Positions 16,715-44,594 of a stretch of 64,000 nt of DNA are shown piece after piece. Each line of letters opens with the position of its first letter. The first letter of the stretch is position 1. A program made the translations under genes and the position numbers. This DNA comes from Lamellibrachia columna (taxonomy: Eukaryota > Annelida > Polychaeta > Sabellida > Siboglinidae). The stretch is taken from contig OY759266.1 in the NCBI GenBank assembly GCA_963662155.1, positions 5,117,026 through 5,181,025 on the forward strand, written 5' to 3'. A model generated the notes under the pieces. It saw nothing but the letters and a program-made list of their open reading frames with translations. It did not search any database and was not told the DNA's origin.

Positions 16715-17577
16715 TGTTTTCAGTAGTAGGATAGAGGGGGTGAGGAGGACAACGAGGGTGTTTGAGGGGGGTTCGATAGTCAGGATGACTGACAGAGCGC
16801 TAAACAAGGGAACGACGTGGTGGTTTGCTTCCCAGGGGCAAACATAGAGGCTATCATAGAGAGGGTGGAAAAAATCGTGGGTCCAGGCAAGGCCCAATGG
16901 AGGTTCTATTTTAGTACACATAGGGGCTAACAATGCAGAGAGGGAGAGTACAGCCACCAGTCAGTTAGGAAATACAGGCAGTTAGAAGAACTAAGCAGAC
17001 ACGGGTTGAGCAAATAATTATGTCAGGGATTCTACCGGTAATGGGTAGCAGGGGTCAGAGATATCAAAATTGCCAGAGGATGGCAATTAACACATTAGTT
17101 CAGCAGCTATGTAGTGAAGTGGAAGTTGGATTTATAGGGATGTTTTGTTGGGAGGGCTGATATGTGCATGAGGACTGAGCCTCATCTTAGACTTTGTGGA
17201 AAGGGTGCAGCAGTGTTTGCTGATGAACTATCAGCAGCAGCCGACAGTGACATGGGAAGCCTAACAACTATTTTTGGTAGCAAACATTGTTTAAACTAGC
17301 AGCGAAGTGGGGTTACCTACAGCTGCCTCAAACAGGACAAGAGGCCACTAGTACACACAAACCTGTAACAAAATGTCTGAAAAAAATTTCTGAAGCTGGT
17401 TATAAATGCGAATGTTTAAATGCAAGGAGCATCGAAAATAAGAAAAACAAATTAAACAATATGGCAGAAGATATTAACCCTCACATAATTGGTATAACCG
17501 AATGATGGGCCAACAAAGACATCAGATGCTGACAGGGTACGTAATGTTTAGGAGAGATCGAATAGGAGGGGGGTGTC

Positions 17578-17659
<82 letters not shown>

Positions 17660-18235
17660 AATATGTTCAGGCTTACGAAATAAAATTAGAAAGAGAAGCA
17701 AATTGCGATGAAGCTGTTTGGTGCAATATAGTTACTGGACATTCGATATTAACTATTGGATTAGTTTACCGAAGTCCAAACATGAACGAAGAGGATAGCA
17801 ATAAAAAATACAAAATGCTATAAAGGAAGTGAGTAAAGGGGAATGCATCATAATTTGAGATTTTAGCCACGGACACATACAATGTAAATCTCTAGAGAGA
17901 ACATAGGGTGAGGACCAACAGTTTCTACTATTAATTCAGGATAGTTTCCTTCCTCAACATGTGCTAGAACCAACCAGGGGAGAGAATGTATTATATTTAG
18001 TTTTGTCTTCACAAAATGAGTTAGTGGACAATGTCAAAATTAGCCATTGGGTAACAGCAAAGACAATATATAGTAATTTAAGGTCTTTGGTAACAGTGAT
18101 TATAATCAAATACATTTTGACATCAAAGTAAAATCAGAAAGTACAAATAAAAAAATATAGAAATAATTTTCACAAAGGTAAATATAAAGATATGAGAAAA
18201 TACTTAGCAAAGCTAGATTTGAATAAGATGCGAAG
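16715..18235 (+). pseudogene. Decayed CR1 LINE copy (ORF1 end plus endonuclease start)
   Basis: The order of landmarks follows the better copy at 35074-38937. EGVRRTTRVFEGGSIVRMTD, VVVCFPGANIEAI and GKGAAVFADELSAAADSD come from the SGNH-esterase ORF1. CLNARSIENKKNKLNNMAED and IIGITE come from the AP endonuclease, followed by ETNCDEAVWC-like, IGLVYRSPN and MRKYLAKLD blocks. There are many stops and frameshifts, and a long (TA)n has grown inside the endonuclease. The homology stops at about 18235, well before the reverse transcriptase, so the 3' part was lost by deletion rather than by ordinary 5' truncation. Confidence 0.85.
17579..17657. repeat. (TA)n microsatellite inside the CR1 remnant
   Basis: About 39 TA units replace the codons for ILYVKES of the intact family copy. 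The short AT-rich coding segment GTTATTTTATATG in the related copy shows the likely seed. Confidence 0.95.
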
Positions 18236-21742: not shown

Positions 21743-21793
21743 TACACAAATGGACGGTGTGTAGTCGATTGTGCGTCGGTTGGTCCGCAGGCT

Positions 21794-22313
21794 ATGGGGG
21801 ACAAGGCGGCGCCGGCACGCGATGAAGGCACCTCGTCGTCACCTAGAGTCGGGTCGGCTGAAACAAGTACGACTGCGAACGTGATAACAACTACTGCCGG
21901 TGATTCAGCAGCGAGAACAACTACAACTTCGGCAACAACAACACTGGTTTCGGCAGCAGCAGCAACAACAACAACATCTACACCCGCAACGGAGGCGACA
22001 ACTACACCAGCTGTAGCAGCAACGACAACAACAACAACATCTACACACGCAACGGAGGCGACAACTACACCAGCTGTAGCAGAAACGACATCAACAACCA
22101 CTACACCAGTAGCTCCGCCAACAGCAACGACGGTCGCCCCAGAGGAGCTGGCGGCGGGAGAGGAACCCTCGAGGGATACTGGGCAAAATAAGACTCCAGC
22201 GTCGAAGGGGAAAGCTGAAGTGTCAATGTTGGTAGAGGTACTGGGAGAGGAACTAGTTGGGAAGAACAAGAAGGTGTTGACGAATAGTCTCTGCACCAAC
22301 AACAACATTGTCG
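21794..22313 (+). CDS. Candidate alternative first exon of the nucleoredoxin-like gene (Thr/Ala-rich N-terminus)
   Basis: From ATG 21794 (G at +4) the frame gives 173 codons and ends in phase 1 at G|GTGAGT. Residues of roughly 15-115 are Thr/Ala/Ser/Pro-rich, with a tandem duplication of about 60 bp (21974-22090). No signal peptide precedes them, so mucin-type glycosylation is unlikely. The last 35 codons (KGKAEVSMLVEVLGEELVGK, then KKVLTNSLCTNNNIV and a split Gly) correspond to the start of a nucleoredoxin module and to the product of the exon at 28509-28590. Joined to 31636-31841 and 33407-33547 it would give 288 residues. No other matching WCPPC exon lies between. It may instead be the stump of a tandem duplicate gene. 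Because CCGCAG precedes the ATG, it could also be an internal exon starting at 21791. Confidence 0.65.
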
Positions 22314-23790
22314 GTGAGTTACGCATGTCGTTATGTAAGCAAAATGAATGTTGGTCAGATGGTCATTTTATGACAAGATTTGCCCGAACAAGCTCATTTC
22401 AACATTGGTTTGGCAAGAAGGTGTTTGCCTCGTATACGACAATAAGTGACTGTACAACTATCGGTTGTCTCACCCTTTTGAATATCGATGTCATGAGTGC
22501 CTCCCTGAAGTCTCACTTCTGACACCCCGCCGGAGAGGAAAGCGTTTTTGAGACTACACTAAATCTTCTTAGTACGATTTTCATTCCCCGACGTTTTTGT
22601 ACGCAATGGCGTTCACGTTAATAGACAAAAAAGCCTAGTGGATTGTCGGTGACTTCGTACAGATTGCATATTTATGTATTTCAACCGTAGCATATAAACG
22701 CCATCGATCATTAAATTGTCTACGGGACGTTATTCGCCACACTAAATACCAGTCAGCAATAATCAAGTACTTCTGGAATCAGCGCCTCCTGATAGGTTTG
22801 ACAATCACTGATCTTATGCAAAAGGCCTTTCCGTGTATTTCTTTCAGCTGGTAGCAAAACCTATTACCCATGACTCCCAAAAAGAATTTTGTATGCATCT
22901 GAGGTGATTCTTACGGACATTCAAATGACTCTGTGTTTGTCTAGAAGTGGCACACAGGTTGCGAATTTCGTTTCAGCAGCATTTAGCCAACTGGTCTTGA
23001 TACATTCTGAATGTGCAGATGTGATTTCTTGTCTTTGTAGTTCCTGTGCACTTTTGTCGGCGAAGTGATATTTCTTATGAATAAGCATGAACATGTAGTA
23101 TATTATACGATGGGCATGACATATTGTCGGTTACTAATATTCAAGACATTCGTATGCCGTAAGGAAAAGAAACATTTACTGAAGACCAGGAATGGAAGCC
23201 CAAGGACATCAGCCGGAGTCCGAGGAAGAGGATGCAGCGCTAAGCACTAAGAGGGAAACGAAATCAGTTGGTATCGTAGAGAAGGGATGTAGCATCAAAA
23301 ACCAAAAAGGGGGCCAACGTGTGCGTCTTGGGAAAGGACGCAGCGCCGAACAGGAGGAGGATACATTAAAGCTGTGTACTAATGACTAAGAATAAGATCC
23401 GAGGCAAGATCGGCCGCTTCCCTGGAGCCTGCCAGGGCTGCTTCAGGCTTGGGACCAGCTGTGCAGACAGTGCATGGGTCCAGCGTATGCTGGTGTCTGT
23501 GGTTATATCCAAACACAGGAACTTCCACAACACGGATATTGACATGTTGCGGACTTGTTGACATGTTGCGACACCTCAAGCAATCAAATATTCTAAATGT
23601 ACTACACCAAGCTTGTTGCAACTTCGATGAGCTACGAGTATTGAGACTATTGCTGACATACACCAGGTTGATGGTATCCGTCAAGACAGTACAGTCTGCA
23701 GAGTTGGCTCGTCGCAGAATAGTGTTCGATTCCGTGGGAAAGATAAATGGAAGAAGAGGCAAATATTGGGCTCCGCAACTCCCCCAACGT
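22314..23790. other. Intron-like/intergenic stretch with no supported exon
   Basis: Frames at 23192-23389 and 23449-23931 are open but show no recognisable domain, and overlapping frames of similar length exist on the other strand. I leave them uncalled. Confidence 0.45.
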
Positions 23791-23794
23791 GGTT

Positions 23795-23848
23795 GCCCAG
23801 CCGTGGGAAACATCCCAGTCCTTCTGGGATGTTTCCCACGGGCTGGGC
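23795..23848. repeat. Near-perfect hairpin (24/25-bp arms, 5-nt loop)
   Basis: The left arm 23795-23818 (GCCCAGCCGTGGGAAACATC then CCAG) and the right arm 23824-23848 pair along their whole length except for one unpaired C, around the loop TCCTT. Confidence 0.9.
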
Positions 23849-23989
23849 TTTCGTGGATCGTCGATTGGAGCATAAAACTAAGCTTGTACAATGCAACCTA
23901 TGTACCTACCACTGGTGTTGTACAACTATAACGGCTGGGCAGCTCTGGTGGCAGTACTGAACAAGCTCGATGTCTGCCACTGCTCGTAT

Positions 23990-24270
23990 GTTCGTACCAT
24001 CATCACCCGGCATCGTTGGCCAGACAGTATAATGTCCAACGACGTATGTTCGTACCATCACCCGGCATCGTTGGCCAGACAGTATAATGTCCAACGACGT
24101 ATGTTCGTACCATCATCACCCGGCATCGTTGGCCAGACAGTATAATGTCCAACGACGTATGTTCGTACCATCACCCGGCATCGTTGGCCAGACAGTATAA
24201 TGTCCAACGACGTATGTTCGTACCATCACCCGGCATCGTTGGCCAGACAGTATAATGTCCAACGACGCAC
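23990..24270. repeat. 55/58-bp minisatellite, five copies
   Basis: Units start GTTCGTACCATCA at 23990, 24048, 24103, 24161 and 24216. They alternate between 58 and 55 bp because of an optional extra ATC triplet. Frames on both strands remain open across it and are artefacts. Confidence 0.96.
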
Positions 24271-24274
24271 TATG

Positions 24275-25050
24275 CAACATGTGCAATACAGTTCTGATAT
24301 CCGTGTGTACGGCGGCCACGTGCTACCGATGGCAGAAGATATGCATGCACAAATAGTTCTTGGATTTACCATGCTAGCTGCTAACCAATATAAAGCCCGG
24401 ATAGGACGCCACTGCACAAACCCGTTAGGTGTGCTGCGGATCGACTTCAAAGAAGTAGGCCTAGGTACAGCCAAATCAAGGGAAAACGTGGTAACTAAGG
24501 ACTTAGGCTGAGGAATTAATTTCTATTCCTCTCGATCAATTCATTGCATGTTCACTGCAGTGCCAAATGTTAAGGAGAATTTAACTAGTAAAAGAAAATA
24601 CGTTACGCATTGCTCCATTGAAAGCTATAATTACCGGAGTGTTGTTATAGCAACATAGTTATAGCGGCATTCCGTCCACTACGACCTGGTCCACCGGTAC
24701 AGGCGAACATGTCATTGAGTAGCAATTATATGAGTTAATCAAGTTCCGATTATGTAATTACTGGTCCACTCTAGCGTATTAGATTATATAATCCGCCATC
24801 ACGTCGAATGTGTGGTATTCAAGTTCCGGAATAGGCTAGAAAGATAGAATTCGTCGGAGCCTAGCTCTCAACATTGGGCAAAATGTTGCCCCTTGTGCCT
24901 CGGACGACAACGACGACGTAAACCAAGAGTAGCCTAATCAGCAGTACAGCAGGAGTGATGAACCGCTCCCAGTGCCTGGCTGTGACCAATCTCGGGGCCT
25001 ACTTCATATGATATTCTGTAAAGGCCGCCTGATGCAATCATGTGTGTTAT
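24275..25050. other. No supported gene
   Basis: A frame continuing to 24511 shows no domain I recognise. The rest is unremarkable intron or intergenic sequence. Confidence 0.45.
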
Positions 25051-25057
25051 CTATTAC

Positions 25058-25180
25058 AGGTGTGGTTCTTGAGAAAAATGCTTAGTGTATCGTGGACAGA
25101 AGAGAAAGGTAATGAAGACATTCTTAGAACAGCAAACGGTAAAGATCATGCGCAGTATGTCTTAATGTTGCAAGCTGGAG
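25058..25180 (+). mobile_element. Short LINE reverse-transcriptase C-terminal scrap
   Basis: The frame VWFLRKMLSVSWTEEKGNED and ILRTANGK resembles the common LINE C-terminal motif RRMLRISWTxxxxNEEVL. It is only about 40 codons long and is followed by stops. Confidence 0.5.
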
Positions 25181-26337
25181 ATCATCTGCCTATAAATCTC
25201 CAAGACTTGGTGTTGTAGCTGTATCCGATGATAGGTCGTTCCAGCTGACTAAGGCACGGGATATGACGCTGAACTATATGAATTGTGTGGTAACTGAAGG
25301 GAGCTGAAAAACTGGAATATTGTTATCACCGTTATCACTTCTTTATGTCCGAGAGGGTATCGCAGTCTATAAAAGTTATAGATACAAATGGGTTATATTA
25401 TGTTATTCTCCGTTATTATGACTAGTCAGTTAGCAACCAACGTGCTGACCGTTTGTTAATCTTTTATGTTGTTTACTCTGTTCTGCCTCTTTGCTCTCTT
25501 TATAAAAGGTCGTTTTACTGGTTTCTATTAAACAAGTCACCATCTGGAGGTTTGGGGTATGCTTATTGTGCACTGCAATAGAGCTTAATGTTGTTTTCGT
25601 CTAATGCGTGACACAGGTAACACCAACAGGTAACACCTGCTGATAATATCTGCGTGACTGCAGGTAAATTAAGTAGCAAAGGTGTTGTTCCTTGTTGCAT
25701 AATATGCATATACACACACGCACGCACACACATAATTAGCCAGACGGCGTCATGGTTCCTGTAATGGTTCCAGTTGTAAGACAAACAACTGTTGACAGCA
25801 GACAGTTCCATGACTATACTTTAAATATATTTTTAATGTGATGTTCATGCCCTACGCCTTTCCATTGAGTTCAACTATGATTTATTTCACGTACGATGTT
25901 CTCTATGACCAAGTATAAATTTATACGATAGCAATTTGTAAAATTGTAACAATGTGGTGTATAATCCAACTACCAATCGCTTCTTGTAGTCGTTGTGTTA
26001 ATATGGAAGGAGCTCACACGCATTCCTCGTACAATACATGTATTCATTAGCTAGGTTATTCTGCCTTACCGGCCACTGCAAGCAGTTTGAAGCAACATGC
26101 TGCTAAGTAACTCCTTGGACATTTTACGTATCAAGAAATCGATCTAAGGCATATTCACAAGAGCCGGTCTCCGTAGCAATCAGTTCGCGTCAGAATTAGA
26201 CACAGTAATTGTTGCATCTGTGTCTCCGTTCACACCTCACGCTGTCTTGGCGGAGTGTCAGATGGCAGCGTCGGAGTACAAATAGGTCTGACCACATTGA
26301 CGGATGGTTTGCAGCCAATTAGGTCTGATGATGAAAA

Positions 26338-26388
26338 CGGTTGAAAATTGGTTGGACTCTCGATAGGCCAATGGTTCCCTTGTTTATG
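26338..26388 (+). mobile_element. CR1 3'-UTR scrap
   Basis: GTTGGACTCTCGATAGGCCA followed by ATGGTTCCCTTGT matches the 3' UTR of the CR1 copies at 35074-38937, 48322-48643 and 63605-63760. Confidence 0.75.
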
Positions 26389-26759
26389 ACACGTGGAACT
26401 TGTTAATTGCTGTGGGTGGTAATCCTGCGGAAGGTTATTAGCCTCAATTACTCAAAATTAACGCCACAAAATCATTGATGACACAACGATCAAACAGTTA
26501 AAACACATTTTGTATAATTGTTTGTTTGGAAGAGCGTGATTTTTTTTAACATGACAAAATAAAATTCCGTATGGATAACTAATTTGCCCCAGACATTCCG
26601 TGCTCTAAATACACTATAACTATTATGCGTATTGCTTATATACAGAGAAGTTGCGTTGGGAGTTGTGAGGTGGTTGTATCGAGGTAGGAGAGGAGAGGTC
26701 ATACTGGTGGAAGCAACGTATAGGAGGAAGCAAACAGCAGTGATGAAATTTGAGTCATT

Positions 26760-27600
26760 TTTTTTTTGAAGTCAGATGCGCTTGGAGTGCGTGGAAATGT
26801 GGAAGAATGGGAAGTATTGAGGAAGATATTGTATGCTGACGATCTAGCAGTAGTGACAGATAGTTAGGAGGAGCTGCAGAAGACATTGCTAGAATGGCAT
26901 ACAATTTTCAGAAAGCATAGTCTCCAAATGAATCCAGATAAGACCGAGGAGATGTGGACGGGGGATCGGGGTGTGGACCTATATAGATAGTTATGTGGGG
27001 AAAGATGATCAAGCAAGTTGATAGTACATATCGTGTACTGGGGGGTGGACGGATTAATTAGTAGGGACGTGCGTAGGATGGTGCAAGGTGGACGGACAAT
27101 AGAGAGGAGATTGGTATTTAATATGTGGGACAGAAAGGTGAAGAAACATCTAAAAGGAATATGTTGGAATGATGGGCACATGTGATAACGGCTTGTGTAT
27201 GGGTTGGGGACAGTTGCATCGACAAAGAGACAGGAGGAGAAGCAGAGAACAACTGGGTTCGGAGGAATGTAGAGTGAAACGAAATGACAGTAGAATTGTG
27301 GAAGAACATTGGAATGAAAATAAAACATGAAAAGGAAGTCTGTAGTTGGGAGCAGACTACGACAGGCAGGACATATTCAAAGACTGAGTGAGGAGAGGTT
27401 GACAAAAATAGCGTGTAAACCAGAAGAGGGTGGTAGAACGAAAAGAGGAAGACCAACATTAAGGATGGATAATGTGACGAGGTCTGGAAAATGAAGGGGC
27501 GAGCAGCAGAGAATGGGAGTGGATGGCAGAAGATCGAGAGAGATGGAGACAAGCCGTCGAGAGGGTTGAAAAAAATTCGTGATGTGGCCTCCACCCCACA
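26760..27600 (+). mobile_element. LINE reverse-transcriptase C-terminal half, decayed
   Basis: The + strand encodes LRKILYADDLAVVTDS with the catalytic YADD box, then EELQKTLLEWHTIF and SLQMNPDKTE. After many frameshifts come AGHIQRLSEERLTKIA, then KGRAAENGSGWQKIERDGDK. These are the palm and C-terminal parts of an animal LINE reverse transcriptase. The open minus-strand frames across the same DNA are shadows. Confidence 0.8.
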
Positions 27601-28371
27601 AGCTATTAAGAGTAAGAAGAATTCTATTGCTTGTGTGTTAATGCACTATTTAGTACGTCAGTGACACGATCGCGGGTGTGCCAGCGGCTGTGTGAGCGTG
27701 TATTGGCGTGTAGTCGGTAGGCCGGGCGGGCGTGGCTGCCCAGGTAACCGCCACAGATCACTCGTGGTTTTGTGTAATGGAAGTTTCCACTGCTTGTGTG
27801 GCGCGTGTGCTTGCTTAGTCACCGGCCTATGGTGAATTGCCGCGCACACTGATTGTAGTGCGGCGAGGCGCGAACACTTTGAATGTTGACCAATCAGAAT
27901 ACAAGGATGTAGTATTTACACAAGTCATCCCGGTAAACAAGCTTAGTCACCACTGATGGATCGAGAGCGCTACCAAACAAATGTACAAATTACACATTTA
28001 AATAAACTATACTTATTCGGAATAATGTGATTATAAATGATCGATGTTGTTGGGGTTTTATAATGGATGAGTCGGCCTGTTGCCTCAGGATGTTAGATAT
28101 TGTTTGTTGTGATTAATTGCCGGTCCACACATACATTATCATCGAGAATGTTCTTACTTGTGCCTTTCATACCACACCTCCGCATTATGTTCCAATCGAT
28201 ACATATACATAAAAAGCTTCATTTTCATATTCATGATGCTAAATAATTAATCTGACCTCAATAACGCTCGGGTAGCTGCCGATGCCGAATTCGAGCTCAA
28301 TGGCAACCCGACCTGATTAACCATTGAAGCAAACCACCGCGCAAATCAACGTTTAAAAAAAATTATCATCT

Positions 28372-28430
28372 GATTGGTCGGGTTGACTCGTGTGCCTTCC
28401 GATTGGTCGGCGACATTCGCATATAACCGG
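28372..28430 (+). promoter_or_regulatory. Candidate core promoter with two inverted CCAAT boxes
   Basis: GATTGGTCGG occurs twice (28372-28381 and 28401-28410), giving two inverted CCAAT (NF-Y type) boxes 29 bp apart. CATATAACC follows at 28420 as a weak TATA-like site about 90 bp before the ATG at 28509. The arrangement is typical of animal promoters, but its function is inferred. Confidence 0.5.
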
Positions 28431-28508
28431 ACACGTTTGTGGCATAAGTGCTGTGTCACGTTCTGTCTCGCGGCGAGGTGTGTTTGACTACATCGTCATC
28501 ATATAGAT

Positions 28509-31280
28509 ATGGAGGCATTGTTGGGGAATAAATTGGTGAACGGCAACGGCGATGAGGTCGCAACGTCTAGTCTAGCTGACAAAGTGGTCGGTGAGTGTAC
28601 ATAGGCACGGGTATCCAGCGCCAACATGACTATAATATAGATATACGCGGTCGTATGGCCCGACTAGCCGGCTCTCAGCCCGAGGCAACGGTTTACGTTC
28701 AGCCATGTAAACAACATTGCCCGGCAGGGGTATCGGCGAGGCTTAATTTGCCCTCTGGAGACACGTTGGCTTAGATAATATCAGATTGGCGTCCGTGAAC
28801 AGTCCGCACTAATGTATGCACCAGTGGCATTGCAGCCAAATATAGAACTATGCGTTGTTTACCTAGGCCCCAGTCGGACAATCGGCTTTACGTTATAAGA
28901 TATATATAGTATTATAAATATAGTCTACTGCATGGAGTCTCTGGATGAGGATGTTGTAGGATATATTATGTCTAATGTGTTGGTGTTGCATATTTGTTTT
29001 GCACATAAAGTTAATAGTTAATCAAAGTGTGATGTTACCACTGGATGTGCGTATTTGGAGCCTGAGTGATGCCATATTATTGACACACATTATTCACCAA
29101 CGCCACAGGCTGTTTCACTGGGCAAATCACGTGTGTGTGCGTGCGTGCGTGCGTGCGTGCGTGCGTTCGTGCGTTCGTTCGTGTGCATGTCTCACTCATT
29201 CGCTCACTCACTCACTCACTCACTCACTCACTCACTCACTCACTCACTCACTCACTCACTCACCCACTCACTATACTGTATTCTAAGAAGCAAATGTGGT
29301 TTGTGTGACTCCGTCCCCGAACCCCTTTGGTGACTCTCTACATACCAGAACATTGCGTTGACAAGTGTTCCTTTAAAGGCACAACGACTCTATTTGTCGA
29401 GAATGTTTACCACCACAACTGGGCCCAAAGTTCACATTAAATTGTCACAAAAATAAACGGCTGCACGTTCACGGCGATTACTCCCAGTGTTCGAGTGTTG
29501 TATCCATTAGAGGCTTTAATAAACACAATCCTATAAGAATGCAGCAGTGTTTGTGATCTCGGCTCCCCGGGTGCTTGTAAAATTCACCGAGGCAGAACAT
29601 GTTTTAAAGAACAACATACACGTTAGGAGTTAGTTTTCTTTAGCAGCTGAACAACTGTTTAGCTGTTGGACGCTACGACCAGGCGTATAGTGAGAACATT
29701 ATCTGTTCACGGAATTGCAGCTTTGATTGGCTTGCCCTTTGATTAGGGATGCGCAAATCAAAACTGTTACGAACACATAGGTAGGAAATGGATGACAACG
29801 GGCCACACACAAGAGGAAAAACAAACAAGTGGGCCAGCAGCACACGACGTAAACAGCAATGATAACAGCAGAGATAAATAAACAGAGAGGGGCTACGTGT
29901 TGGTGTTTCTCGACGGCAACTATCAAAATTTATCAACAAAAACAATGTGAATCAGCATAATTAGGAGAAGACAAAGGAATACATTATACAAGGTTGTAAA
30001 ACAAAATAATAAAGATGACATGGACCAGGACTTGAAGCACGTGACCTTACGCAGTGCGTAGTAGTAGTAGATAGTTATCCACGTGACCTTACGCAGTGCG
30101 TAGTAGTAGATAGTTATCCACGTGACCTTACGCAGTGCGTAGTAGTAGATAGTTATCCACAGCGCAGAAGAAAAAAACAGCACCATTATGTCTCTACTCG
30201 ATACATACACAGGCTTGTTGACAGGTCAATCTCGAGTTTCTGGTCACTACTACTGGTCAAGGTTACTGACTTCACTGTGCCTAGTGATCCATTGTCGGAA
30301 AATGATGTTCACCTCACAGAAGTGTGAACGGTTATTTGATACCACAGAGTTCGCAACCAAATAACATCCCCAGGTGCAGGGTCAATTGACAACAGAAAAC
30401 AGATCATTTGCCAAAACAAGATGATCGGGTTAATGAAGAGCTGTCGTTCCAAGTAAGGATTTGTAGAACGTCGCTAGGCGATTGACATAGATACCTATAA
30501 CATTGCAACTCGTATGCATGTTATTGTTATACATACTTACGGATCTAGGTTTGTTGGCAAGTCGCAGTCAGTCGTAGTCATGTGTCGTTCTACTTAGAAT
30601 GGCGGGGGCGGGGGCGGGGGCGGGGGCGGGGGCGGCATGACACGTGTCGTTCTACATACAGAAGGGTTAATATTAGCCGGCTCCTAATACTTCAGTCTTT
30701 ACACTGATACTAGTTCCGATGTAGGCCTCTATTCGTTGTCATTTACCGTCATTTGTCATTTTTGTCATGGACACAGAGGGGTCTAAGACTCCCTCCATGG
30801 CCTTAGGGGGTCTTGAGACCCACTAAGACCCCATGGATCCGCTGCTGTACTTATAATATTAACCCATTGTCGAACCACCCACGTCTTGGCATAGAGGTCA
30901 CCCTGAATGTGTCACGCACCCACCCACATGCCCCGTAAATAATTAATGTTGTTGTCACAGAATGAAGTATGTATTGTGTTAAATGTTGACAGGCAACATG
31001 CATCCATAAGTGACGCATTCACTCGCTGGTTATAAACGTCCGTAATTAATTATTACTCATTGGAGGGGATCAGTATGTGCTGCCATCTAGTTAATGTCGC
31101 TGAACAAACCTCCCTCGTAATAACAGTGGTACGTTTTTGTTTTAGTCGACCCCTGGTTGGTTGATGCCCCTGAAAATACTTTCATTTTAACTCAACAGCC
31201 AAGGGAATTTGAATTTGTTACCATCAAAGAAAGAACATTTTGTCGACAACACGAATTTCAATGTGGTATTTAAAACATAC

Positions 31281-31327
<47 letters not shown>

Positions 31328-31337
31328 TGTATGTATG

Positions 31338-31390
<53 letters not shown>

Positions 31391-33547
31391 TTAACATGTT
31401 ATTAATTAAATTAGATTAAAATAAGTAGAAGTGCAATAATAGTCAAACATCTGTGTTTATGTTAGCCTTACGTAATCTACAGTAAAATATCACTACCTCG
31501 GATATTGGCAGGACAAACCCCAGCGCACAATTTCATTGATTGATGTGGGAACCGGGACAAAGTTTAAGTTTGTTCGGGTGGATCTACCAAAGGGGATACT
31601 AAGCCATGACAAGCGACTGTCCTTGTTGTTGCCAGGGCTGTACTTCTCGGCCCATTGGTGTCCCCCGTGCCGCACATTCACGCCATCACTCGTCGACTTC
31701 TACAAGAAGTTCAAGAGCTCCCCGCGCGGCGATCAGCTCGAGATCATCTTCGTCAGCTTCGACCGCAGCGAGGGCAACTTCAAGTCGTACTTCGCCGAGA
31801 TGCCGTGGCTCGCCGTGCCGTACGACGAACAGGAAGTCCGGGTGAGTTGTTCCGCCTCCGTCTCAACTGTAGTGTGTCGTCGATAATTACGATGACATCT
31901 GCGTGTGATAGATGTGAAGGATGCTCCAGTGGACGGAGTACACGGGGTGTCGTACCCTTGAAACAACGCGCACATATTGCATGATGTAGTATCCATGAAC
32001 TTAGCACGCTTCAGGCCGACTGTTCAGACTCGACATTTAGAACCGCAATGTTACGCAGACATTAGAATATAATTTTAACCACATAGCCATGGCATATCAA
32101 TATAATTTTTTTTGTAATGGAAACATACCCACGAACGTCATATGCACGCACGCATAATTTGGACTAATCCCAGTACAACGTCAAGGCGAAGAAACCACAC
32201 AAACAATCCAGCATTTTCCATATCTCGGGTCAGGCATTGTCTGAAATACTGTCGGTGATACTTGCTTTATGCAGTAGCCTTGTGTTATTCGTTAGCTACT
32301 ACTTGTGTCGATACTTGCGCTATGCAGTAGCCTTGTGTTATTGGTTAGCTACTACTTGTGTCGATACTTGCTCTATGCAGTAGCCTTGTGTTATTGGTTA
32401 GCTGCTACTTGTGTCGATACTTGCTTTATGCAGTAGCCTTGTGTTATTCGTTAGCTACTACTTGTGTCGATACTTGCGCTATGCAGTAGCCTTGTGTTAT
32501 TGGTTAGCTACTACTTGTGTCGATACTTGCTCTATGCAGTAGCCTTGTGTTATTGGTTAGCTACTACTTGTGTCGATACTTGCTTTATGCAGTAGCATTG
32601 TGTTATTGGTTAGCTACTACTTGTGTCGATACTTGCGCTATGCAGTAGCCTTGTGTTATTGGTTAGCTACTACTTGTGTCGATACTTGCTCTATGCAGTA
32701 GCCTTGTGTTATTGGTTAGCTACTACTTGTGTCGATACTTGCTTTATGCAGTAGCATTGTGTTATTGGTTAGCTACTACTTGTGTCGATACTTGCGCTAT
32801 GCAGTAGCCTTGTGTTATTGGTTAGCTACTACTTGTGTCGATACTTGCTTTATGCAGTAGCATTGTGTTATTGGTTAGCTACTACTTGTGTCGATACTTG
32901 CTTTATGCAGTAGCCTTGTGTTATTGGTTAGCTACTACTTGTGTCGATACTTGCTTTATGCAGTAGCATTGTGTTATTGGTTAGCTACTACTTGTGTCGA
33001 TACTTGCGCTATGCAGTAGCATTGTGTTATTGGTTAGCTACTACTTGTGTCGATACTTGCTTTATGCAGTAGCATTGTGTTATTGGTTAGCTACTACTTG
33101 TGTCGATACTTGCGCTATGCAGTAGCATTGTGTTATTGGTTAGCTACTACTTGTGTCGATACTTGCTTTATGCAGTAGCCTTGTGTTATTGGTTAGCTAC
33201 TACTTGTGTCGATACTTGCTCTATGCAGTAGCCTTGTGTTACTGGTTAGCTACTACTTGTGTCGATACTTGCTCTATGCAGTAGCCTTGTGTTACTGGTT
33301 AGCTACTACTTGTGTCGATACTTGCTCTATGCAGTAGCCTTGTGTTACTGGTTAGCTACTACTTGTGTCGATACTTGCTCTATGCAGTAGCCTTGTGTCG
33401 TTGCAGGAATCGGCCGGAGCCAACTTCAGCGTCAGTGGCATTCCTAGTCTGATCTTCGTGAATGGAGCGACAGGGGAAATCGTACAGAAAGACGGCAGGA
33501 GTAAAGTGTCCTCCGATCCCAACGGCAACGAATTCCCGTGGGCATAG
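28509..33547 (+). CDS. Nucleoredoxin/tryparedoxin-like thiol-disulfide oxidoreductase, single thioredoxin-like domain
   Basis: Exons 28509-28590, 31636-31841 and 33407-33547 join with GT..AG borders (phases 1 and 0) into 142 codons ending at TAG 33545-33547. The protein runs [16 protein letters not shown], then [20 protein letters not shown] with the redox pair in WCPPC, then [35 protein letters not shown], the cis-proline strand [14 protein letters not shown] and the end GNEFPWA. Order and spacing match one nucleoredoxin module, including the 20 residues from PWLAVPY to GIP, so no exon is missing. The length fits tryparedoxin-type proteins rather than three-module vertebrate NXN. It is expected to be a cytosolic or nuclear dithiol reductase of protein substrates; no signal peptide is present. 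The second intron is mostly a 53-bp minisatellite. A second first exon may exist at 21794-22313. Exon base composition is GC-rich compared with the flanks. Confidence 0.92.
29133..29272. repeat. (GTGC)n and (CACT)n microsatellites
   Basis: A CGTG run (29133-29166) degrades into GTTC/GTGC and is followed by about 17 CTCA units (29200-29272), all in the first intron of the nucleoredoxin-like gene. Confidence 0.95.
30038..30160. repeat. 39-42-bp tandem repeat with palindromic core, three copies
   Basis: Units start CACGTGACCTTACGCAGTGC at 30038, 30080 and 30119 and contain the hairpin CTTACGCAGTGCGTAG. CACGTGAC is an E-box/USF-like word repeated in each unit. Confidence 0.9.
30601..30635. repeat. 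(GGGGGC)n hexanucleotide, G-quadruplex-prone
   Basis: Five consecutive G5 runs separated by single C on the + strand, in the intron of the nucleoredoxin-like gene. Confidence 0.93.
31281..31386. repeat. (TA)n(TATG)n(TA)n compound microsatellite
   Basis: A TA run, about ten GTAT units, and a second TA run. Confidence 0.97.
32245..33395. repeat. 53-bp minisatellite, 22 copies, ending at a splice acceptor
   Basis: The word GCAGTAGC starts at 32271 and recurs every 53 bp up to 33384, exactly 21 steps. Unit variants are set by the triplet before TATGCAG (TTT, CGC or CTC) and by CCTT versus CATT. The first six units follow a TTT-CGC-CTC three-unit order, later units mostly alternate TTT and CGC, and the last four are all CTC. 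The final unit passes without a spacer into the polypyrimidine tract and acceptor TGTCGTTGCAG|GAA of exon 3. Confidence 0.97.
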
Positions 33548-35168: not shown

Positions 35169-37668
35169 CTACTTATAGCCCGCCCTCCTGAGATATGTGT
35201 CAACCTTGTTTTTAAACATATTCACGCTGCTAGCAGTTACACAATCTGTAGACAATTTGTTCCATTCATTTATTGTCCTCTGTGAGAACGAGTGCTTCCT
35301 GATGTCCAATCTACATTGATCCTTTACTAATTTTACCTCATGTCCTCTAGTTCTGCTATCCTTCTTGAGTGAGAAAAACATATTTCTATCAATATTTTCA
35401 TACCCATTCAATATCTTAAAAACTTCAATCTGATCTCCTCTTAACCTCCTTGTCTCTAGAGTTGTTAAACCACATTCTTTCAGGCGTTCTTCAAAACTAA
35501 GGTCTCTCAGTTCTGGAATCATTTTAGTTGCTCTCCTTTGTATGCGTTCAAGCGTATCTATATCTTTCTTACGATATGGTCTCCATGCTTGTATACAGTA
35601 TTCTAAATGAGGTCTAACTATTGCTTTATAAAGAGGTATAATTAACTTTTTTCCCTTGTATGTTATGTTTCTTCTAATCAATCCAAGAATTTGATTACCC
35701 TTTGAAGTTGCAATACCACACTGCTCTGAAACTTTCATATCAGCGCTTATTGTAACTCCTAAGTCCTTTTCTTTTACAGTAGTACCCAGAACAGTATCTC
35801 CCATTTTATAGTTTACATTCAAGTTCCTATGTCCTGTATGTAGGCATTTACATTTCCCAAAATTGAACAACATCTGCCATTTCTCAGACCATTTCACTAA
35901 TCTGTCTAGATCGTTTTGTAAATGTTGTTTATCACCATCAGTATTAACCTTTCTAAACAGTTTTGTGTCATCCGCAAATTTCAGTACGTTACTTGTTATA
36001 CTGTTGTCCAAGTCATTGATATAAATTAAGAATAATATAGGTCCTAATACTGATCCTTGAGGTACCCCACTCAAAACCGATTTCCAATTTGAAACTTCTC
36101 CATCTACTACAACTCGTTGTCTTCTGTCAGTCAGCCATTGTTCTATCCAGTCAGTTATGCTGTCCCCGATACCATGGGCTTTTAATTTAAGTAGTAATCT
36201 TTGATGTGGCACTTTGTCAAAAGCTTTCTGAAAATCTAAGTAGATAATATCTACTGGCGATCCCACGTCTATCCACTTAGTGATTTCTTCCAAAAAACTG
36301 GAGTTACAACTAACGGACCTAAATAGTCAGATTTAGCCCCCTGAAATTTAGCATCAGCAACTGGTAATGAACTAATATCTTCTTTGGTAAACACTGAACT
36401 GAAGTAACCATTTAGGTCTTCCGCCATTAAATACCCCTGTGATATTATATTTCCAGCACTGTCTTCTAGAGGTCCAACCTTGTCTTGTACGTTTTGTTTA
36501 CTCCTGACATATGCAAACTCTTGCTGTAATTTTTTATGTTACATGCTAGTTTTTGCTCATAGCTTCTTTTAGATTGTCTGATTTCAGTTGTAGCTGCATT
36601 AAGTGCCTCTTTGTATTTTGCATAGTCTTCGTCCTTTCTGGTACGCCTATAAACCCTCCACATAGTTTGTTTTAGCATTATTTTTCTAATAGCCTCTTTT
36701 GACAAGTGTTTCTTTCTACACCGTTTTCCTTGTTTTTGGAAGGGAACAAATTTATCGATGATACTCTCAATTTCATATTTTAGAATATTCCAACATTCAA
36801 TTGCGGTCTTATTCATCAGCATGTTATTCCAATCTAGCTTTGCTAAGTATTTTCTCATATCTTTGTAGTTACCTTTGTGGAAGTTTCTCTTGTACGTTTT
36901 CTTATTTTTACTTTCTGATTTTACATTGATGTCAAAATGTATTTGATTATGGTCACTATTACCCAATGGTTCAAATATTTTTACATTGTCCACTAATTCT
37001 TTTTGTGATGACAAAACTATATCTAATACATTTTCTCCCCTGGTTGGTTCTAGTACGTGCTGAGTAAGAAAGCTATCCTGGATTAAAAGTAGAAATTGTT
37101 GGTCCTCAATCCCTGTGCTCTCTAGAGAATTCCATTGTATGTGTCCATGGTTAAAATCTCCCATTATGATACATTCCCCTTTACTAACTTCCTTTATAGC
37201 GTTTTTTATTTTTGTGTTGTCCTCTTCGTTTATGTTTGGACTTCGGTAAACTAATCCAATAGTTAATTTTGAATTACCTGAAACAATTTTGCACCAAACA
37301 GCTTCATCGCAATCTGCTTCCCTTTCTAGTTTTATTTCATAAGCCTGAATAGATTCTTTAACATATAAAATAACTCCCCCGCCCCTTCTTCCTATTCGAT
37401 CTTTCCTAAACATTACATATCCTGTCAGTCCTAATTCAGCATCTGTTATATCTATGTTGGCCCATGATTCAGTTATACCAATTATGTGAGGGTCAATATC
37501 GTCTACCATAATGTTTAATTCGTTTTTCTTATTTACTATGCTCCTTGCATTTAAACATACGCATCTATAACCTTTTTCAGAGATGTTTTTCGGATGATTT
37601 GATATTGGTTTATCTGTGCTAGTGGCCTTTTGTTCTGCTTGAGACACCTCTAGGTAACCCCCCTGCAC
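35169..37668 (-). pseudogene. CR1 ORF2: AP endonuclease plus reverse transcriptase, disrupted
   Basis: The first 400-codon frame (37668-36466) shows the endonuclease blocks CLNARSIVNKKNELN, IIGITESW, IMGDFNHGHIQW and LGNSDHNQIHF. A one-base frameshift at about 36515-36530 sends it to a stop; the neighbouring frame continues as FAYVRSKQNVQDKVGPLEDS and GYLMAEDLNGYFSSVFTKED. Near 36305 an internal deletion joins LGPLVVTP directly to FLEEITKWIDVGSPVD, removing the reverse-transcriptase finger region (roughly 100 codons by comparison with the family). The second frame (36293-35169) retains YLDFQKAFDKVPHQ (motif A), GVPQGSVLGPILF (motif B), KFADDTKLF (motif C), and the C-terminal LERIQRRATKMIPE and INEWNKLS. 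Not functional. Confidence 0.9.
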
Positions 37669-37670
37669 TT

Positions 37671-38933
37671 CTAGTTTAAAGAATGTTTACTTCCAAAAAT
37701 ATTTGTCATTGTACCCAAGTCACTATCTACTGCTGCTGAAAGTTTGTCCGCGAATACTGCCGCCCCCTTTCCACTTAAATGAAGCCCATCCTTCATGTAC
37801 ATATCAGCCCTCCCAACAAAACTTCCCCATAAATCCACAAATCCAACTTCCTCTTCCCTACATAACTTCTGGACTAACATGTTAATTGCCATCCCCCGAC
37901 AATTTCGATATTTGTGACCCCTCCTGCCCATTACAGGTAAAATCCCTGACAGTATTACCTGCTCAACCCGCGTCTGTTTTGGTGTTCTGACCAACTGCCT
38001 ATATTTCCTAACTATGGCAGTTGTACCCTCCCTCTCTACGTTATTTGTCCCTACGTGTACTACAACAGATCCACCCTTACCCGAGCCTACGATGTTTTTT
38101 ACCCTCTCAGTTATCGCCTCTATTTTGGCTCCAGGCAAGCAGACCACCACATCATCTCCCTTGTTTAAGACTCTGTCGGTCTTCCTAACTATCGAATCCC
38201 CCACAAACACCCTCGCTCTCTTCCTCACCCCCTCTATCAGTGATGCAGAATAACTCTTCCGTTCGATCCCCTCCATCCCATTCTGTCCTGACCCCTTCCC
38301 TCCTGTCTCCTTCCCTCCTGTCTCCTTCGCTCCTGTCTCTCCCACTTCCCTCTCCTTCACTCCGGTTGTTTTCCCTCCCGTCTCCCCCACTCCCTTCTCC
38401 TTCCCTCCTGTCTCCCCCACTCCCTTCTCCTTCCCTCCTGTCTCCCCCACTCCCTTCTCCTTCCCTCCTGTCTCCCCCACTCCCTTCTCCTTCCCTCCTG
38501 TCTCCCCTACTCCCCTCTCCTTCGCTCCGGTTGTCTTCCCTCCCGTTCCTTTCCTTCCCGTCTCCTTACGTCCTGTCTCCCTACGACCTGTCACCTTCCC
38601 TCCTCTCAGCTTCCTCCCAGGCTGCGGTGAGCTCTCCCTAGCATCTCTTGTGTCTTTCCCCACTTTATCATCTACTGTTCCCCCACCGGAACTACTGGCA
38701 CAACCCCCCTGTTCCCTTCCCACTATTGCCACAACGAGCAGCCTCAGCTCTTCCAACTCCACCTCTAGTTCCTTCATCTTCGTACATCCCCTACACTCAA
38801 AACTAAAACTATCTGCCTGGACCTCAGCCCAGGACTTCTCGCACCCAGACTTGACGAAGTCCACCCAGTTACTACAACTGCCACAAATTAAGTGCCTTGT
38901 GGCCTTTAACTGCCGTTTGCACGGCGCCATCAT
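37671..38933 (-). CDS. CR1 ORF1: Cys-rich finger, coiled coil and SGNH esterase
   Basis: An intact 420-codon frame. The N-terminus has a PHD-like Cys cluster (CGSC..C..CRGC) followed by a charged helix (KELEVELEELRLL). A Gly/Lys/Glu-rich middle contains five tandem GETGGKEKGV decapeptides (30-bp repeats, about 38380-38530). The C-terminal half is an SGNH hydrolase: VGDSIVRKTD (block I), VVVHVGTNNV (block III) and DGLHLSGKGA (block V with catalytic Asp and His). CR1 ORF1 proteins are RNA-binding chaperone-like proteins whose esterase role is unresolved. The frame is open, but the partner ORF2 is not. It ends 2 bp before the ORF2 ATG at 37668. Confidence 0.88.
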   Translation of the reverse strand: MMAPCKRQLKATRHLICGSCSNWVDFVKSGCEKSWAEVQADSFSFECRGCTKMKELEVELEELRLLVVAIVGREQGGCASSSGGGTVDDKVGKDTRDARESSPQPGRKLRGGKVTGRRETGRKETGRKGTGGKTTGAKERGVGETGGKEKGVGETGGKEKGVGETGGKEKGVGETGGKEKGVGETGGKTTGVKEREVGETGAKETGGKETGGKGSGQNGMEGIERKSYSASLIEGVRKRARVFVGDSIVRKTDRVLNKGDDVVVCLPGAKIEAITERVKNIVGSGKGGSVVVHVGTNNVEREGTTAIVRKYRQLVRTPKQTRVEQVILSGILPVMGRRGHKYRNCRGMAINMLVQKLCREEEVGFVDLWGSFVGRADMYMKDGLHLSGKGAAVFADKLSAAVDSDLGTMTNIFGSKHSLN

Positions 38934-39071
38934 ACAATTTAGTTTTAATTAGTTTGCAACGTTAGCCTTGAATAAGGCTGTTTTTGTGATCAAAAGAACA
39001 CTTTAGTATAATATACTTGCTAACTGTGTCTTCTATTAACCTCGCATGAGAAAAAAAGCCACCTAATTGGT

Positions 39072-42564: not shown

Positions 42565-44594
42565 AAATGCAACGTCAGATGGAGTGGCATAAACAGTTGG
42601 TTGGCTAGACGGCGCCATTGTTCTTTACGACGTGTTACGTCATTGCAACTGAACGTCAGGTGGAGTGGCATAAACAGTTGGTTGGCTAGACAGCGCCATT
42701 GTTCTTTATGACGTGTTACGTCATTGCAACTGAACGTCAGGTGGAGTGGTATAAACAATTGGTTGGCTAGACAGCGCCATTGTACTTTACGACGTGTTAC
42801 GTCATTGCAACTGAACGTCAGGTGGAGTGGTATAAACAATTGGTTGGCTAGACAGCGCCATTGTTCTTTAAGACGTGTTACGTCATTGCAACTGAACATC
42901 AGGTGGAGTGGCATAAACAGTTGGTTGGCTAGACAGCGCCATTGTTCTTTACGACGTGTTACGTCATTGCAACTGAACGTCAGGTGGAGTGGTATAAACA
43001 ATTGGTTGGCTAGACAGCGCCATTGTACTTTACGACGTGTTACGTCATTGCAACTGAACGTCAGGTGGAGTGGTATAAACAATTGGTTGGCTAGACAGCG
43101 CCATTGTTCTTTATGACGTGTTACGTCATTGCAACTGAACATCAGGTGGAGTGGCATAAACAATTGGTTGGCTAGACAGCGCCATTGTACTTTACGACGT
43201 GTTACGTCATTGCAACTGAACGTCAGGTGGAGTGGCATAAACAGTTGGTTGGCTAGACAGCGCCATTGTTCTTTATGACGTGTTACGTCATTGCAACTGA
43301 ACGTCAGATGGAGTGGTATAAACAATTGGTTGGCTAGACAGCGCCATTGTTCTTTATGACGTGTTACGTCATTGCAACTGAACGTCAGGTGGAGTGGTAT
43401 AAACAGTTGGTTGGCTAGACAGCGCCATTGTTCTTTACGACGTGTTACGTCATTGCAACTGAACGTCAGGTGGAGTGGCATAAACAGTTGGTTGGCTAGA
43501 CAGCGCCATTGTTCTTTATGACGTGTTACGTCATTGCAACTGAACGTCAGGTGGAGTGGTATAAACAGTTGGTTGGCTAGACAGCGCCATTGTTCTTTAT
43601 GACGTGTACGTCATTGCAACTGAACGTCAGATGGAGTGGCATAAACAGTTGGTTGGCTAGACAGCGCCATTGTTCTTTACGACGTGTTACGTCATTGCAA
43701 CTGAACGTCAGGTGGAGTGGTATAAACAATTGGTTGGCTAGACAGCGCCATTGTTCTTTATGACGTGTTACGTCATTGCAACTGAACGTCAGATGGAGTG
43801 GTATAAACAATTGGTTGGCTAGACAGCGCCATTGTTCTTTATGACGTGTTACGTCATTGCAACTGAACGTCAGATGGAGTGGCATAAACAGTTGGTTGGC
43901 TAGACAGCGCCATTGTTCTTTACGACGTGTTACGTCATTGCAACTGAAGTCAGGTGGAGTGGCATAAACAGTTGGTTGGCTAGACAGCGCCATTGTTCTT
44001 TACGACGTGTTACGTCATTGCAACTGAACGTCAGGTGGAGTGGCATAAACAGTTGGTTGGCTAGACAGCGCCATTGTTCTTTATGACGTGTTACGTCATT
44101 GCAACTGAACGTCAGGTGGAGTGGTATAAACAATTGGTTGGCTAGACAGCGCCATTGTACTTTACGACGTGTTACGTCATTGCAACTGAACGTCAGGTGG
44201 AGTGGTATAAACAATTGGTTGGCTAGACAGCGCCATTGTTCTTTACGACGTGTTACGTCATTGCAACTGAACGTCAGGTGGAGTGGTATAAACAATTGGT
44301 TGGCTAGACAGCGCCATTGTTCTTTACGACGTGTTACGTCATTGCAACTGAACGTCAGGTGGAGTGGTATAAACAGTTGGTTGGCTAGACAGCGCCATTG
44401 TACTTTACGACGTGTTACGTCATTGCAACTGAACGTCAGGTGGAGTGGTATAAACAGTTGGTTGGCTAGACAGCGCCATTGTTCTTTATGACGTGTTACG
44501 TCATTGCAACTGAACGTCAGGTGGAGTGGTATAAACAGTTGGTTGGCTAGACAGCGCCATTGTTCTTTACGACGTGTTACGTCATTGCAACTGC
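42565..44594. repeat. 81-bp minisatellite, 25 copies, with a bZIP-like palindrome per unit
   Basis: The word ACGTCAGGTGGAGTGG recurs every 81 bp from about 42571 to 44594. Each unit contains GACGTGTTACGTCATTGCAA. Its core GACGT-GTT-ACGTC is a perfect inverted repeat, extended to ATGACGT..ACGTCAT in units with the T variant, and it includes the CRE/ATF-like TTACGTCA. Two small deletions (about 43606 and 43947) change unit length. Because 81 is divisible by three, frames stay open on both strands for hundreds of codons; these are not genes. Confidence 0.97.

Follow-up and report, generated by a model that had tools for sequence, protein, structure and literature searches.

A nucleoredoxin-like gene of the tubeworm Lamellibrachia columna with two candidate alternative first coding exons

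A 64,000-nucleotide stretch of the Lamellibrachia columna genome (C6:5117026-5181025, called the window here; positions count from its first letter) contains a gene predicted to encode a small thioredoxin-like (tryparedoxin-like) enzyme. Four coding exons lie on the forward strand. Two carry candidate openings of the protein: exon A (21794..22313; 520 nt, 173 codons plus one base), a candidate alternative first coding exon; and exon B (28509..28590; 82 nt, 27 codons plus one base), the first coding exon of a compact form. The other two are common to both forms: exon 2 (31636..31841), which encodes the WCPPC active site and ends ...EVR in phase 0; and exon 3 (33407..33547), which runs from ESAG through FPWA to the stop codon and supplies the GIPS loop and the C-terminus. 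Exons A and B are both open, and both close on a phase-1 split glycine, GTCG followed by the donor GTGAGT. As the original prediction held, either joins in frame through exons 2 and 3 to give a single-module enzyme, of 288 residues (A) or 142 residues (B). Judged from its sequence, this is probably a single nucleoredoxin-like gene in which two first coding exons are used as alternatives.

Splice sites were ranked against 4178 GT and 3487 AG sites by a position weight matrix (PWM) with hand-written weights. The donors of exons A and B both fall in the top 0.45% of GT sites, and that of exon 2 in the top 0.10%; the acceptor of exon 2 reaches the top 0.20% of AG sites, and that of exon 3 the top 0.14%. 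GTGAGT occurs 23 times on the forward strand of the window, and the 10-mer GTCGGTGAGT twice, exactly at the exon A and exon B donors. The start contexts are gctATGG for exon A and gatATGG for exon B. The GCT preceding the exon A start codon (21791..21793) follows an acceptor-like AG at 21789-21790 (PWM score 8.33, top 1.06% of AG sites), so that exon A may be preceded by an untranslated exon. The exon A frame is open over 173 codons, which 4 of 1000 dinucleotide shuffles equal. Within it lie three features: a Thr/Ala-rich part (21955..22107) that contains a 63-bp (21-codon) imperfect tandem repeat; the A-type nucleoredoxin opening KAEVSMLVEVLGEELVGKNKKVLTNSLCTNNNIV(G), which carries a cysteine in the motif SLCT (22211..22313); and an in-frame internal ATG at 22226 (context tcaATGT), which would yield a compact A-form about 145 residues long.

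The homology of the two openings was assessed with a profile built on 442 such openings in relatives, leaving out three tubeworm-like sequences described below (P0001, P0030, and P0066). Among 2836 six-frame segments of the window, exon B scored 37.7 bits (E 2.7e-10), exon A 17.6 bits (E 5.2e-4), and the third-best segment 5.5 bits. Both matches extend to the last profile column, which is the splice donor. With a profile extended to cover the WCPPC motif, exon A is found at E 0.0051. Across 284 kb (the window plus 220 kb upstream) the opening profile ranks exon A second to exon B alone, at E 0.0027. The claim that A and B are homologous openings is thereby upheld; each opening, originally described as half of a redox module, is rather about 28-35 residues, or about one-fifth of the 142-residue enzyme. 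Compared directly, the two agree at 42% over 26 residues, and 60 of 5000 shuffles score equally high. That comparison was rejected as too weak a basis, and the likeness is therefore carried by the opening profile together with P0030. (Exon A alone has no match in Pfam at E<=1.) Exon B is 92.9% identical over 28 residues to P0001, a protein of Lamellibrachia satsuma. Differences between the window and L. satsuma number 2 of 28 in exon B and 5 of 68 in exon 2, a similar divergence (P 1.0).

P0030 is a public partial sequence of 107 residues, encoded on a 325-bp contig that was deposited as Bacillus thuringiensis; it is probably an animal sequence that contaminates a bacterial record. It reads MAKPVSVPVLITLLGEELVGKKKKTVQMSSLCTKDKYIG and then passes directly into the WCPPC exon. 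Its opening matches exon A at 54.5% over 33 residues (E 4.5e-6, tblastn against the window) and exon B at 44% (E 3.1), and among 469 openings it is the top match of exon A after exon A itself (43.1 bits; next, 29.1). Exon A and P0030 share the motif SLCT, which none of the 442 other openings has; the looser S[LF]C is found in 7 of the 442. The second part of P0030 matches exon 2 of the window at 95.7% in the same tblastn search, and the two agree at 65 of 68 residues. Differences from the window's exon 2, of 68 residues, number 3 in P0030, 5 in the L. satsuma B-form, and 8 in the relative P0066. Exon 2 with an A-type opening is thus no more diverged than exon 2 attached to a B-type opening, as a shared exon predicts. 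P0030 ends at the exact last codon of exon 2, and the length of its contig suggests that neither end is more than about 4 bases from the coding limits, like a spliced transcript cut at exon borders. (Scanning a contig collection with P0030 gave 135 confirmed loci, of which 80 were kept; these carry bacterial record titles and were not used. A scan of viral contigs gave no confirmed relative.)

If exon A had exons 2 and 3 of its own, these might be found elsewhere in the assembly (879,693,805 bases in 30 contigs), where protein searches score first-look candidates alone. The B-form matched six places among eight candidates: exons B, 2, and 3, and three places on contig C9 (42-47%). P0030 matched four of four candidates: exon 2, two places on C9 (48% and 44%), and exon A. 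The C9 places represent a different nucleoredoxin, 42-48% identical, and apart from it no close second WCPPC exon was found in the window or in the assembly search. The prediction of a single downstream WCPPC exon therefore stands for the window and, with the C9 nucleoredoxin as the exception, for the assembly search; a search for a separate downstream partner of exon A, which the original prediction had called for, found none that is close. Exon B was missed in the P0030 search, so strongly diverged exons could escape it. The stretch 22108-22400 of exon A is single copy (assembly DNA search, one of one candidate), and exon A is the one A-type opening that the assembly searches found. Scanning 284 kb recovered only A and B as openings, and only exons 2 and 3 as the remainder. 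Sensitive blastn of 22314-28508 revealed no remnant of either exon 2 or exon 3; the flanks of exons A and B showed no self-match joining them; and an intact tandem duplicate, with its own exons 2 and 3 for exon A, was not found in the window, the flanks, or the assembly search. The window and the 220 kb upstream contain no N bases. Directly after the window lie 5000 N (C6:5181026-5186025), either a gap or a withheld stretch.

Both predicted products match PF13905 (Thioredoxin_8) well above the Pfam cut-off of 27: 93.5 bits for the B-form and 89.9 bits for the A-form. Two features of Thioredoxin_8 and tryparedoxin-like proteins are present: WCPPC in exon 2, and the GIPS loop in exon 3. The catalytic residues lie in these two exons, unchanged by the choice of opening. 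AlphaFold models of the relatives P0030 and P0001 have a mean predicted local distance difference test score (pLDDT) of 89.7 and 88.7, respectively, and in both the opening follows the same order: helix, two short strands, short helix, strand. The best match of the P0030 model in the PDB is 9fov_A (E 1.6e-8), and tryparedoxin structures are at the top. These models suggest a tryparedoxin-like fold that includes the opening. The B-form contains two cysteines, both in the active site; the A-form adds a third, C167, in common with P0030. Residues 1-125 of the A-form include 43 Thr and 27 Ala. This stretch, originally called a Thr/Ala-rich tail, is instead an N-terminal extension.

In the model proposed here, transcripts that begin at exon B or upstream of it would join 28590 to 31636 and encode the compact 142-residue enzyme. 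Transcripts that begin at exon A or upstream of it would skip exon B and join 22313 to 31636, encoding 288 residues if translation starts at 21794, or about 145 if it starts at 22226. The choice of exon would swap the N-terminal helix and β-hairpin and add the Thr/Ala-rich extension and C167, whereas WCPPC and the GIPS loop would be identical in both forms. The model is built on the frames, the phases, the splice signals, the homology of the openings, and the single partner exon found in the assembly; presumably the splice from 22313 to 31636 is made and the two exons have separate promoters. Any functional difference between the A- and B-forms most likely concerns partner choice, location, or thiol regulation, not chemistry. 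The single partner exon, along with the joining of an A-type opening to WCPPC in P0030, favors alternative first exons over a dead tandem copy.

Several observations weigh against this model. Exon A and the P0030 opening disagree at 15 of 33 residues, against 3 of 68 for exon 2 (Fisher P 1.5e-6), a disparity which implies that exon A is more weakly constrained, fast-evolving, or not the strict orthologue. Moreover, P0030, which may not be cDNA, comes from a 325-bp contig under the name Bacillus thuringiensis. In the assembly search the match between P0030 and exon A has E 0.124, and a full-length profile gives exon A just 6.5 bits (E 1.8). Taken alone, the non-repeat 3' part stays open in 52 of 1000 shuffles, and exon A also has one open reverse frame; low-complexity composition partly explains the open frame, so openness alone is moderate evidence. 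Finally, the best 120 of 2488 protein matches include neither a public full-length A-form nor a tubeworm A-form.

Could exon A instead be what remains of an upstream tandem copy that lost exons 2 and 3, now unused or part of a short dead-end transcript? This fallback, raised in the original prediction, is less likely than alternative first exons, and on balance is improbable. The openings of A and B are homologous yet strongly diverged (42% over 26 residues), as a remnant might be; P0030 departs far more from the exon A opening than from exon 2; and tandem NXNL genes are reported for Hydra in PMC9396122. However, sensitive blastn found no trace of exon 2 or exon 3 between A and B, their flanks lack a self-match, and exon A retains its frame, start context, and consensus donor. 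A long-diverged copy would also be expected to have a diverged exon 2, whereas that of the A-type P0030 is just 3 of 68 residues off.

It is very unlikely that exon A splices into exon B rather than past it. An AG at 28505-28506 would allow this join in frame, for a protein of 316 residues with two consecutive openings, and L. satsuma P0001 does read through there, with an upstream piece joined in matching phase to the exon B ATG. That AG is weak, however (2.93, top 17.67% of AG sites), the A opening is already complete to its glycine, and P0030 has an A-type opening directly on WCPPC. Furthermore, the upstream piece of P0001 corresponds here to a dispersed repeat (all 40 scored places match, from 173 candidates), so the P0001 model may be a prediction artefact. 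Such a splice is nonetheless possible on paper; alternative first exons, the best-supported part of the original prediction, therefore need not be mutually exclusive as it had proposed. Least probable of all is that exon A is part of a second, complete gene, the partner exons of which are absent from the assembly, unreadable, or diverged beyond the reach of the search. The N stretch right after the window would leave room for them, as would a genome search that is limited to first-look candidates and missed exon B with the P0030 query. Yet that stretch lies about 42 kb past exon A and is separated from it by exons B, 2, and 3; neither the window nor the 220 kb upstream contains N; and the search did recover the C9 nucleoredoxin exons at 42-48% identity. 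Alternative first coding exons remain the preferred explanation.

The dispersed repeat noted in P0001 occupies 27450-27650 of the window (the 40 places include this one). It supplies P0001 residues 1-41, from 27491-27613, through either misprediction or exonisation of the repeat. These extra 41 residues were considered as a third genuine first exon, and rejected because 27491-27613 lies in the dispersed repeat.

Single-module tryparedoxin/nucleoredoxin-like proteins of the PF13905 family are found in other invertebrates. The best hit of the B-form is P0001, annotated 'Nucleoredoxin' and 91% identical over the full length of the B-form, which is also about 50% identical to many mollusc, echinoderm, and amphioxus proteins; WCPPC is a shared feature. 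The L. columna gene has an extra, divergent candidate opening exon upstream, and none was seen in these relatives, which were compared as proteins. The NXNL gene (RdCVF/RdCVFL) of scallop has three coding exons, and retention of its intron 2 yields a truncated thioredoxin, as described in part of PMC9396122. The gene here also has three coding exons in each form, a likeness in exon count and not a family assignment; the alternative first exons proposed here are not mentioned in that part of PMC9396122. A comparable arrangement occurs in sDscam of Chelicerata and the clustered protocadherins, in which, according to PMC4835542, homologous variable 5' exons with matching donors are joined to shared exons. 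In L. columna, by contrast, there are two candidates, not dozens; the product is an enzyme, not a receptor; and part of a catalytic fold would be swapped.

Alternative first exons are common, and the arrangement is of a known kind; what is new is that they would exchange the start of a thioredoxin fold. No description of alternative first exons doing so, and nothing on nucleoredoxin in tubeworms, was found in the open-licence literature searched. ('Redoxin' was not found in the available parts of the Riftia and Paraescarpia genome papers.) If the model is right, a redox enzyme encoded by a single gene presents two different faces, with its active site untouched and one cysteine added, in an animal that probably houses sulfide-oxidising symbionts. 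Such a gene would also provide a clean natural test of the role of the N-terminal hairpin in nucleoredoxin-like proteins. If the model is wrong, exon A is a fresh case of an orphaned exon.

Intron 2 (31842..33406), between exons 2 and 3, contains a 53-bp minisatellite (32257-33398, 21.5 copies) that abuts the exon 3 acceptor. Twenty-two of its units contain ATGCAG followed by TAG, an acceptor-like site and then an immediate stop in the exon 2 frame; splicing to any of these acceptors would terminate the protein with the final codon of exon 2. Of the 22, four were scored; they rank no higher than the top 3-7% of AG sites. Retention of intron 2 would lead to a stop after 14 codons, for a predicted 110 residues (B) or 256 residues (A). 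The read-through from exon 2 into intron 2 (31842-31883) resembles that of P0066 (VGRSTSVSAMLCRRQVG), which indicates a similar beginning of this intron in a related animal. Conceivably, though this is doubtful, the gene works two by two: the B and A starts would each combine with a full end or with a truncated, RdCVF-like end made by intron 2 retention or by the minisatellite acceptors, and P0030 would be a truncated A-type form. The animal would then have a compact two-cysteine B-form and an extended three-cysteine A-form, each with either end.

Elsewhere, tRNA and Rfam searches of the window returned nothing. A long interspersed nuclear element (LINE)-type element, presumably CR1-like, lies on the reverse strand at 35169-38948, with a reverse transcriptase and an endonuclease; a frame upstream of these carries a GDSL lipase domain, and a diverged partial copy is present at 16730-18231. 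An 81-bp minisatellite occupies 42571-44593, with 25 copies and 96% matches.

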